From Luteimonas gilva (GTDB taxonomy: Bacteria > Pseudomonadota > Gammaproteobacteria > Xanthomonadales > Xanthomonadaceae): a stretch of DNA of 64,000 nucleotides. Both the position numbers and the translations under genes were made by a program. Location of the stretch: assembly GCF_005239095.1 (NCBI RefSeq), contig NZ_SZUA01000001.1, positions 1,407,049 through 1,471,048 of the forward strand, read 5' to 3'. Below the pieces are notes generated by a model. The model was not told where the DNA came from and did no database searches. It worked only from the letters and a program-made list of their open reading frames with translations. Below are positions 8,753 to 62,267 of the stretch, piece after piece (position 1 is the stretch's first letter; every line of letters begins with the position of its first letter).

Positions 8753-9496
8753 GTGCCGCAATCATCGTTCCGAGGTTTATTCGCTGCGCTCGTCGCGGCC
8801 GTGTTGCTGACGTTCTCGCTATCCGGCTGCGTGTCCACCCAGGTCCGCACCGCCAAGGACGCCACCGGCCAGCCGCTGCGCATCGACGGCAGCGTAGTGC
8901 TGGTGGAGCCGGACATCGAATTGTCCGAATTGCTGGTCGGCGGCGCGGCCGAACCGCGCAAGGAATGGACCGAAGCCGCACGCAAGCTGTATCCGCAGGC
9001 CGCCCGCGATCAGCTTCAGGCCCAGGGCATCGTTCTGCGCCCGGATTTCGCCATCCCGGCCGACGCCGGCCCGGAGAACCGCCTGCGCCAGATGTATCTG
9101 CTGAACCAGGCGGTCTCGCTGAGCATCCTGCAGTACTCGCGCAGCAGCGGCACCGGTCCGCTGCGCAACAAGCACGGCAAGTTCGACTGGACGCTGGGCC
9201 CGGGCGCGGCCGAACTGCGCCAAGCCACCGGCGCCGACTACGCTTTGTTCACCTACGTCCGCGACAGCTACACCAGCGGCGGCCGCGCGGCGATGCGGGT
9301 GGTCGGCTTCCTGCTGCTGGGCGGCGACATCGGCGGCGGCACCCAAATCGGGCTGGCCTCGCTGGTCGATCTGCGCACCGGCCAAGTGGTCTGGCACAAC
9401 CTGCTGCTGGACCAGACCGGCGACTTGCGCGACGCGCCCGGCGCGCGCGAGACCGCCGACGATCTGCTCAAAGGCATGCGGGGCAAGCCGCAATGA
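8753..9496 (+). CDS. Outer-membrane lipoprotein of unknown function
   Basis: A 247-residue lipoprotein. The N-terminus has a hydrophobic segment ending in SLSGC, a lipobox with the lipidated Cys near residue 26. The mature part includes a VVLVEPDIELSELLVGG segment and, near the C-terminus, GFLLLGGDIGGGTQIGLASLVDLRTGQVVW, which resembles lipoproteins paired with M48 peptidases. The GTG start is preceded by a strong GGAGG (about 8741). The same frame is open upstream to 8105, so a longer fused form is possible. The stop overlaps the ATG of the M48 peptidase (ATGA), so the two are translationally coupled. Confidence 0.75.
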   Translation: MPQSSFRGLFAALVAAVLLTFSLSGCVSTQVRTAKDATGQPLRIDGSVVLVEPDIELSELLVGGAAEPRKEWTEAARKLYPQAARDQLQAQGIVLRPDFAIPADAGPENRLRQMYLLNQAVSLSILQYSRSSGTGPLRNKHGKFDWTLGPGAAELRQATGADYALFTYVRDSYTSGGRAAMRVVGFLLLGGDIGGGTQIGLASLVDLRTGQVVWHNLLLDQTGDLRDAPGARETADDLLKGMRGKPQ

Positions 9497-10659
9497 AGAC
9501 GCGCGCACTCGGCATCGGCCTGCTCGTCGCCTTGACCGCCTGCGCCAGCCAGGCGCCGATCCGCGACAACAAGCCGGGCACCGCGCCCGCCGCCGGGAGC
9601 GACGAAGCCGAATTGTGGTACGCGATGGAGCGCGCCGAAACCGAACTGCAGCGCTCGCCGCTGCGCGTGCGCGACCCTGCGCTCAACGAGTACGTGCGCA
9701 AGGTCGCCTGCGAGGTGTCCGGCGAATACTGCAAGGACCTGCGCGTCTACGTGATGGACGTGCCGCAGTTCAACGCCAGCATGGCGCCGAACGGCGTGAT
9801 GCTGGTCTGGACCGGCGCCCTGCTCCGCGCGCGCGACGAGGCCGAATTGGCTTTCGTGCTCGGCCACGAAGCCGGCCACTTCAAGGCGCAGCACTCGTTG
9901 AAACAGTGGCGCCGCATCAAGGACACCAGCGCCATGTTGACGGTGTTCCAGGTGCTGGCCTACGGCGCCGGCGCGCCGAACACGGCGATGCTCGGCTCGC
10001 TCGCCGGCTATGCGACCTTGTTCAAGTTCACCCGCGACCAGGAACGCGAAGCCGACCGGCTGGGTTTCCAGGCCATCGTCGAACACGGCTACGACCCGCG
10101 CGCCGGCATCGACCTGTGGGCGCGGATGAAGCGCGAGGAAGACACGCGCAAATACGACAAGCCTTCGCCGGCGTTCTCCACCCACCCCGCCACGGCCGAG
10201 CGCTTGGCCGACATCACCGCCGCGGCCGACGCGGTGGCGAACGCATCGAATGAGCGCCGCCGCGACGCCTACCGCGCCGCGACGCGGCCGTATCTGGAAC
10301 ATTGGCTGGACACCGAACTCGCCCGCCGCGCTTATGCCGCCTCGCTGCTGGTGATCGGCGAACTGCTCGCCGATTCGCCGCAGCAGGACGAGGGCGTGCT
10401 GACCTTCTACCTGGGCGAAGCGCACCGCCGGCGCAACGCCGACGGCGACCGCGCCGCGGCGGCCAGGCTGTATGCGCAAGCCGTCGCGATGCCCGGCGCA
10501 CCGGCCGCGGCGTGGCGCGAACACGGTTTCGCACTGCGCGCCTCCGGCCGCAACGCCGACGCGCGCGTCGCCTTGCAACGCTATCTCGCCGACGCGCCGC
10601 AGGCCGAGGATCGCGCCTTCGTGCAACGCGAATTGGACAAGCTGGGAGGTGGCTCGTGA
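9493..10659 (+). CDS. M48-family metalloprotease lipoprotein
   Basis: A 388-residue zinc metalloprotease, probably anchored to the periplasmic face of the outer membrane. The lipobox is LTAC with Cys17. The zinc motif HEAGH (His125, Glu126, His129) and the third ligand Glu186 in READRLG are intact. After the ~200-residue peptidase domain, a C-terminal helical part (about 240-388) with LYAQAV and ALRASGRNADARVAL segments looks like tetratricopeptide-type repeats, as in BepA-like envelope quality-control proteases. The start overlaps the upstream lipoprotein stop and its stop overlaps the next GTG, making a coupled three-gene unit. Confidence 0.88.
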   Translation: MKTRALGIGLLVALTACASQAPIRDNKPGTAPAAGSDEAELWYAMERAETELQRSPLRVRDPALNEYVRKVACEVSGEYCKDLRVYVMDVPQFNASMAPNGVMLVWTGALLRARDEAELAFVLGHEAGHFKAQHSLKQWRRIKDTSAMLTVFQVLAYGAGAPNTAMLGSLAGYATLFKFTRDQEREADRLGFQAIVEHGYDPRAGIDLWARMKREEDTRKYDKPSPAFSTHPATAERLADITAAADAVANASNERRRDAYRAATRPYLEHWLDTELARRAYAASLLVIGELLADSPQQDEGVLTFYLGEAHRRRNADGDRAAAARLYAQAVAMPGAPAAAWREHGFALRASGRNADARVALQRYLADAPQAEDRAFVQRELDKLGGGS

Positions 10660-11315
10660 ACCTATTCCGTAGCCCGGGTAAGCGCAGCGCACCCGGGAAT
10701 GAGTCGCGACGTGTTCCCGGGTGCGCTGCGCTTACCCGGGCTACGCGCTTGGTCGCAATCTTCATGTTGTCGACGCTATTGGCGGCCTGCGCCTCCAACG
10801 GCCGCCCGCTGGTCCTGCCCGGCCCGAATCCCGCCGGCAGTCGTTTGAGCTTGAACAGCGAGATGGAATGGACGCGTATTTCCGCATCGCGCTTCCAGTT
10901 ATGGACCATCGACGGCGAGTTGCTCAACCGCCTTTACCTGATCCCGTCGGTGCGCGAGCGCGATTACATCTTCCTGGGCAGCCGCCAGACCAAGCGCCGC
11001 CCGGACGGCGCCTACTTCAAGCCGGGGATGCGCGCGGACGAATTGCGCGATCTAATCGTCGACGGCTTGGCCGCATCGGGCGCGGTGAACATCGCGCCGA
11101 GCAATCTGCGGCCGACGACGTTCGGCGACCGCGAAGGCTTGCGCTTCGAAGTGTCATTGGCCAACGAGGAAGGGCTGAAATACCAGGGCATGGTCGCCGC
11201 GTTCGAACACGACAAGGAACTGGCGCTGGCGATCTTCCTGGCGCCCAGCGAGTACTACTATCCCCGCGATGCGGAGAAGGTGTCGCGGATGCTGGACACC
11301 TTGCGTTGGAAATAG
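10656..11315 (+). CDS. Lipoprotein with a GTAG palindromic repeat in its 5' codons
   Basis: A lipoprotein of unknown function (219 residues from the GTG at 10656). The GTG overlaps the M48 gene stop and has GGAGG upstream, so it is the best-coupled start. Codons 5-30 are the translation of a perfect GTAG-type palindrome (10669-10744), followed by RLVAIFMLSTLLAAC, the actual lipobox signal. Alternative starts after the repeat are TTG 10749 and ATG 10764, but these leave the signal without a basic N-region. The mature part is well formed (RFQLWTIDGELLNRLYLIPSV, FEVSLANEEGLKYQG). The repeat appears to have inserted in frame without destroying the gene. Confidence 0.7.
   Translation: MNLFRSPGKRSAPGNESRRVPGCAALTRATRLVAIFMLSTLLAACASNGRPLVLPGPNPAGSRLSLNSEMEWTRISASRFQLWTIDGELLNRLYLIPSVRERDYIFLGSRQTKRRPDGAYFKPGMRADELRDLIVDGLAASGAVNIAPSNLRPTTFGDREGLRFEVSLANEEGLKYQGMVAAFEHDKELALAIFLAPSEYYYPRDAEKVSRMLDTLRWK
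10669..10744. repeat. GTAG-type palindromic repeat (REP/BIME-like)
   Basis: Two perfect 31-bp inverted arms (10669-10699 and 10714-10744), starting GTAGCCCGGGTAAGCG and ending CGCTTACCCGGGCTAC, surround a 14-bp loop. The GTAG head plus stem-loop is the signature of the repeats described as SMAG in Stenotrophomonas, mobilised elsewhere by RAYT transposases. It lies inside the 5' coding part of the lipoprotein gene at 10656. Confidence 0.9.
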
Positions 11316-11325
11316 CTTTGCTCGT

Positions 11326-11388
11326 GTAGAGCGGAGCTTGCTCCGCTGCTTTGCTTTGTAGAGCGGGGCTTGCCCCGCTCTACAAAGC
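11326..11388. repeat. GTAG-type repeat pair between convergent genes
   Basis: One unit GTAGAGCGGAGCTTGCTCCGCT (from 11326) is followed by a perfect 17-bp-arm palindrome at 11353-11388 (GCTTTGTAGAGCGGGGC, TT, and its complement). It sits between the lipoprotein gene (+) and ppiB (-) and could act as a transcript-ending hairpin for both. Confidence 0.85.
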
Positions 11389-62103: not shown

Positions 62104-62267
62104 GTAGAGCGGAGCTCGCTCCGCTGCCGCCGCTGTTGGCTTCACCGCTCTAGCTTTGTAGAGCGGGGCTTGCCCCGCTGCTTTACGACCCGGAGCGGCA
62201 AAAAAGCAGCGGAGCAAGCTCCGCTCTACACGAGCAGAAGCGAAGCAGCGGAGCAAGTCCCCGCTAC
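62104..62267. repeat. Cluster of GTAG-type repeats upstream of ychF end
   Basis: Three or more units: GTAGAGCGGAGCTCGCTCCGCT (62104), GTAGAGCGGGGCTTGCCCCGCT (62159), a complementary AGCAGCGGAGCAAGCTCCGCTCTAC ending at 62229, and a trailing GCAGCGGAGCAAGTCCCCGCTAC (62245-62267). It lies between the convergent TonB receptor and ychF genes. Confidence 0.85.

Follow-up and report, generated by a model that had tools for sequence, protein, structure and literature searches.

The window analysed here, a stretch of 64,000 nt, carries an M48 peptidase gene followed by a lipoprotein gene that starts within the stop codon of the former, and a long palindrome lies in the signal-peptide region of the lipoprotein gene. 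The features of the locus are as follows.

9487..10659, + strand: upstream gene, Peptidase_M48 (BepA/LoiP-like; Pfam PF01435, E 9.2e-29; NCBIfam matches weak and under their cut-offs)
10644..10652, + strand: Shine-Dalgarno region GGGAGGTGG (predicted anti-SD duplex -11.5 kcal/mol)
10656..11315, + strand: lipoprotein gene, 219 aa, GTG start overlapping the M48 stop codon TGA at 10657-10659 (ORF, homologues and conserved overlap)
10668..10745, no strand given: GTAG REP dimer (palindrome), probably 26 lipoprotein codons (arm pairing, two exact units, 63 units genome-wide)
10746..10790, + strand: remainder of the signal peptide RLVAIFMLSTLLAAC, with lipobox LAAC (translation, aligned with homologous signals)
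10788..11312, + strand: mature lipoprotein, starting at the lipobox Cys (dN/dS)

The palindrome comprises 78 nt, or 26 codons, placed in frame after GTG10656 and before the lipobox Cys. Its two arms (10668-10706 and 10707-10745) adjoin without any spacer and are 92% complementary, pairing at 36 of 39 bp, with the outer 32 bp perfect, or 31 bp when counted from GTAG without the flanking pair; the perfect 31-bp-arm GTAG palindrome described in a previous sequence-only reading was thereby confirmed. The GTAG..CTAC core measures 76 nt and reaches 78 nt with the flanking C and G, these being the limits of the palindrome; the exact ends of the inserted piece cannot be fixed because the n-regions of the relatives are too diverged. 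The palindrome could be resolved into two GTAG REPs placed head-to-head, with exact units of the sequence GTAGCCCGGGTAAGCGCAGCGCACCCGGG (family A) at 10669-10697 on the + strand and 10716-10744 on the - strand, while none was expected by chance (100 shuffles). Translated in the lipoprotein frame it contained no stop and read RSPGKRSAPGNESRRVPGCAALTRAT, and the earlier claim that the repeat keeps the frame open and adds about 26 residues was thus borne out. Two traits of GTAG REP/BIME elements were found, namely a short palindromic unit tagged by GTAG at one end, here in two opposed copies, and many dispersed copies including inverted dimers (23 dimers in the genome). Extragenic position, a third trait, was not found, as the repeat lies in frame within a gene of conserved start; this is no bar to membership, since intragenic GTAG REPs have been published (PMC3733652).

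The lipoprotein had no family match in Pfam or NCBIfam. Homologues of its mature part were found in 69 of the 395 genomes sampled in the family, spread over 15 of 54 genera, with Lysobacter, Thermomonas and other Xanthomonadaceae records (8 loci) as the named relatives. A charged n-region, a hydrophobic stretch and a lipobox with a final Cys were seen both in the window translation and in the homologues, and the lipobox pattern was present at 60 of the 69 homologous loci. The mature lipoprotein is under purifying selection, with dN/dS of 0.09 and 0.085 against two genomes of the same genus (G002 and G003, respectively) and 0.14 against the relative G011.

GTAG repeats and Y1 transposases in the genome

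In the assembly of the window genome (G000; 3.63 Mb, 4 contigs, 99.98% complete), 63 units of family A were found at up to three mismatches, and a reversed control pattern gave none. The relatives had 58 (G002), 51 (G003), 26 (G026), 9 (G001), 9 (G016) and 1 (G011). A second type, family B (GTAGAGCGGGGCTTGCCCCGCT, at most one mismatch), numbered 33 units in the window genome, 110 in G002, 61 in G003, 1 in G001 and none in G026, G011 or G016. The low numbers of both families in G001, which belongs to the same genus, are unlike those of the three other genomes of the genus, and G001 had no homologue of the mature lipoprotein.

Six Y1 transposase matches were found in the window genome, four of them above cut-off, and GTAG hairpins lay near four of the six. 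One transposase (L040) had inverted family B units on both sides, and another (L042) a one-sided pair related but not identical to family A. Two weak matches were accompanied by a third GTAG hairpin type (GTAGGCTGGGTT...AACCCAGC), on both sides of L043 (near 1300 and 1947) and on one side of L044 (near 1952). No GTAG hairpins were found near L039 and L041, and none of the Y1 transposase genes was flanked by exact family A units, nor by family A units at up to five mismatches. With the name RAYT used here on the basis of Pfam match and hairpins, the repeats and Y1 transposases would fit a GTAG REP/RAYT system.

The 63 family A units form 40 clusters (loci L045-L084), that of the window included. 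A codon-usage scan of all 40 found just one cluster spanned by a coding ORF, L051, and this candidate for an intragenic REP was rejected, as the ORF is an antisense extension and the real gene, presumably SurE, begins behind the repeat. The scan cannot see N-terminal captures and did not flag even the element of the window, and therefore 14 of the other 39 clusters were read base by base. In seven of these 14 (L045, L046, L054, L057, L065, L073 and L081) the downstream frame was open through the repeat with an ATG behind it, and in the five of the seven that were tested with Pfam the domain started at or behind that ATG. The window element is, by this best count, the sole intragenic one of the 40 clusters, a count short of proof because the other 25 clusters were judged by scans alone. 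In one of the seven, L045, the REP unit (1540-1577; G000:C1:55139) ends 9 nt ahead of the ATG of a SPOUT methyltransferase and thus takes the place where a Shine-Dalgarno would be expected.

According to our tally of the codon-usage scan edges, 26 of the 40 clusters lie within -4 to +15 nt of the stop of an adjacent gene. The repeat of the window, starting 8 nt after the M48 stop (edge 9 from GTAG), has this usual REP position. Being open in a reading frame is a common property of these elements, with 19 of the 23 family A dimers in the genome open in four of six frames, and an open insert divisible by three would arise by chance in roughly 2 of 9 cases by our rough estimate. As open in-frame inserts are thus not rare by chance, it is the comparison with relatives that carries most weight here.

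Long perfect hairpins are difficult to sequence, and we considered whether the palindrome could be an assembly artefact. The central loop is not palindromic, three of the 39 pairs being unmatched, other dimers in the genome have differing loops, and the assembly consists of few contigs and is nearly complete, all of which makes an artefact extremely improbable.

Start of the lipoprotein gene and relatives without the repeat

GTG 10656-10658 and TGA 10657-10659 give a gene overlap of 4 nt. With an automatic rule that seeks a start codon close to where an upstream frame open for 120 nt or more ends, the same 4-nt overlap was found at 43 of the 69 homologous loci, the upstream frame being defined by length alone. 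Another relation was seen at 16 loci, and 10 had no start under this rule (8 without a recognised lipobox, 1 without a tblastn match and 1 without an overlapping stop). The well-placed Shine-Dalgarno and GTG start claimed earlier were supported by this analysis, as GGGAGGTGG precedes GTG10656 and its duplex energy of -11.5 kcal/mol was equalled or surpassed by only 0.1% of the 2766 start-like codons on the + strand of the window. The two starts that would leave the repeat untranslated, TTG10749 and ATG10764, had anti-SD energies of -2.5 and -2.2 kcal/mol, close to the median of start-like codons (-2.5 kcal/mol), and evidence for an independent ribosome site was found at neither. Reading of the sequence revealed no other in-frame ATG, GTG or TTG between 10656 and 10749.

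A start at TTG10749 or ATG10764, with the palindrome as a non-coding leader hairpin, was the main alternative. Di Nocera et al. suspect that most N-terminal REPs are non-coding (PMC3733652), and the seven clusters described above had open frames through the REP with an ATG of their own behind it, one of them, L045, illustrating how closely a start may follow. In addition, the hairpin in the RNA could strongly impede initiation at GTG10656. The predicted cost of opening the ribosome site was 12.2 kcal/mol for GTG10656, 34.9 for TTG10749 and 11.1 for ATG10764, which speaks against TTG10749; ATG10764 would open about as easily as GTG10656, and accessibility by itself is therefore no argument for GTG over that codon. 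Against both codons stand their median Shine-Dalgarno energies, the conserved overlap of the start among the homologues and the would-be signals themselves, MVAIFMLSTLLAAC from TTG10749 and MLSTLLAAC from ATG10764, neither of which contains any Lys or Arg. The homologues in G002 and G003, described below, have a REP unit 3' of both in-frame ATGs, again at odds with a start behind the repeat. We hence judged a start at 10749 or 10764 unlikely, and regard the start at GTG10656 as well supported by these sequence features, with the repeat probably translated as lipoprotein codons.

The comparison with relatives lacking the repeat agreed with a start at GTG10656. G026 and G011, the closest relatives without the repeat, had the same start place, overlapping the upstream stop and leading directly into a short lipoprotein signal of 18 residues (MKLRTWLGVCLLVLLAGC and MKQRLIWMCVLLLLLAGC, respectively), and removal of the 78 nt from the window sequence gave a signal of 19 residues, VNLFRLVAIFMLSTLLAAC. 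An empty site in homologues and a retained frame, as expected for a coding insertion of REP or RPE type, were both found. When the 150 nt ahead of the mature lipoprotein were scanned for units of either family with no more than two mismatches in 68 of the 69 loci (L145 left out), only the window, G002 and G003 had matches, with one match at six mismatches in L008; families beyond A and B could escape such a scan. The repeat of the window was shared by none of the scanned relatives. The short signals of the repeat-free relatives, together with the overlapping start and the Shine-Dalgarno, supported the earlier proposal that the palindrome has been captured as 5' coding sequence.

Perfect arms of some length were found at several of the 59 loci with a usable start (10 bp in L091 and L092, 9 bp in L105 and L107, 8 bp in L114, L115 and L131). 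As these are as long as the 8 bp of the G002 REP or longer, hairpin length alone cannot tell REPs apart. The length of the n-region varies among the homologues, reaching for example 39 residues ahead of the Cys in L091-L093, and the site thus looks tolerant. In L094 (G212) the n-region is extended by a short tandem repeat, MILSSTILSSTILSSTNVNSTNVNS, representing another route of lengthening for the same segment.

A second REP in the same n-region

The homologues of G002 and G003 had their overlapping start and lipobox placed as in the window, and their n-region contained a family B unit in frame (MNLQTTQMRPSLCRAGLAPLLLALLLTVLLAAC in G002 and MNLQTTQMRPSLRRTGLAPPLLALLLTVLLAAC in G003). The copy in G002 was exact (G002:C1:24025-24046), and that in G003 had two mismatches, by which the perfect stem was reduced from 8 to 6 bp with the frame still open. 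The mature parts of the two proteins differ by a dS of 0.76, so that the capture is not fresh, and we counted it as a single event in their ancestor. A single repeat common to the three homologues of the genus was also considered and rejected, since the family differs, GTAG lies at +38 and not at +14 as counted from the sequences, and no trace of the unit was found in G000. With family, position and neighbouring sequence all different from the repeat of the window, the two captures appear independent, and judged from sequence REP capture in this n-region has occurred at least twice.

Family B units were also found outside the n-region. The window contains three matches just past the lipoprotein stop (11326-11383) and three near 62.1 kb (62104-62229), and G002 likewise has a unit behind the lipoprotein gene (G002:C1:23427).

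The RNA hairpin of the palindrome, beginning at +13 in the lipoprotein gene, had a predicted energy of -77.4 kcal/mol (z -13.5), and the 160 nt around it a predicted fold of -97.9 (z -8.3). So stable a hairpin might block translation altogether, leaving the ORF as a decaying remnant open by chance, and the perfect repeat suggests a young insertion that would have had little time for decay. The full frame is nevertheless intact in the window genome, without stop or frameshift, and the REP kept in frame across a dS of 0.76 in G002 and G003 tells that such capture can be tolerated; we consider silencing of the gene very improbable.

We find it highly probable that a GTAG REP dimer was captured in frame as signal-peptide codons of the lipoprotein. 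The sequence basis of that capture is in place, as judged from the repeat, its frame, the conserved start position, the empty sites and the second REP capture. A dimer of the type thought to be spread by RAYTs, which presumably acted here as well, would have inserted behind the M48 stop, at a distance of 8 nt. The lipoprotein gene begins within that stop with a 4-nt overlap, so the insertion would fall into its coding sequence after codon 4 and the repeat would become coding. With 78 nt added and the frame open, the protein would be retained with an n-region 26 residues longer, the palindrome having probably been turned into added residues of the signal peptide. The exact insertion is found in one genome only, and selection on the inserted codons is consequently not measurable.

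The 26 inserted residues have a net charge of +5. The extended protein would be made and processed, and the extra residues should be cleaved off together with the rest of the signal peptide, so that the mature lipoprotein would be unaltered. From the predicted fold it is plausible that the hairpin reduces translation, perhaps of both genes. In E. coli, translation is reduced by REPs that stand less than 16 nt away from a stop codon (PMC12306157, citing Liang et al. 2015), and by analogy to that rule, with the repeat 8 nt past its stop, the output of the M48 peptidase could also drop. The palindrome resembles those stop-proximal REPs (at most 15 nt from the stop) in its distance, but differs from them as presented in PMC12306157 in also lying within the next gene, and its hairpin effect is a prediction. 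A literature search found no paper directly linking REPs to trans-translation.

Known coding repeats and meaning of the locus

GTAG-tagged palindromes inside ORFs, often dimers coding for 20-30 residues, were described by Di Nocera, De Gregorio and Rocco (2013, PMC3733652), who also reported that recB of two Xanthomonas species carries different REPs at roughly one site. The use of the TAG of GTAG as stop codon is described there too, and appears to apply to the neighbouring gene in 12 of the 26 stop-proximal clusters found here (edge -4). They suspected most of their N-terminal cases to be non-coding, with misannotated starts, whereas in the present case a conserved gene overlap backs the start, and the insertion has hit a lipoprotein signal. 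The main text of that paper mentions neither Lysobacter nor lipoproteins, and a literature search for in-frame REPs in Lysobacter found no paper. The Rickettsia palindromic elements (RPE; Ogata et al., see PMC3733652 and PMC2229807) are likewise palindromes in frame within protein genes, with at least one product, Gmk, described as expressed and active (PMC3733652, PMC2229807), but they are 105-146 bp or CGTC-tagged and lack the GTAG tag. In Yersinia, YPAL/RU-2 in YPO1552 is a mobile repeat contributing to a signal peptide (Delihas 2007, PMC2229807); there a putative new protein arises, whereas in the window an existing lipoprotein signal is lengthened.

Coding REPs as such have thus already been published (PMC3733652, PMC2229807), and this locus is an unusually well-supported further case. 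Our analysis adds three points to the sequence-only reading, namely a further capture in sister species, an explanation for why the repeat would be coding, which lies in the overlap of the two genes, and the published precedent. The most interesting trait is that two different REPs have been captured in the same n-region. As a tentative and rather doubtful extension, overlapping operon junctions might turn REP mobility into protein evolution, with REPs favouring the stretch after a stop codon, being pushed into the N-terminus of an overlapping gene and meeting tolerant signal n-regions there. Under repeated capture n-regions would then grow longer, and the hairpin would adjust the ratio of the two proteins; later the hairpin would decay while the codons stay, with G000 and G002 as intact states and G003 as a decaying one.

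The question of whether REPs located at 5' gene ends become translated has been left open, owing to suspected misannotation of starts (PMC3733652). For one gene, comparison among relatives at this locus provides a strong answer, drawn from the empty sites, the conservation of the overlapping start and the capture of two different REPs. The locus is in addition a simple natural system in which a very stable hairpin just past a start codon meets coupled translation and export, and it probably illustrates clearly how, in nature, a repeat that usually does not code can be made into protein.
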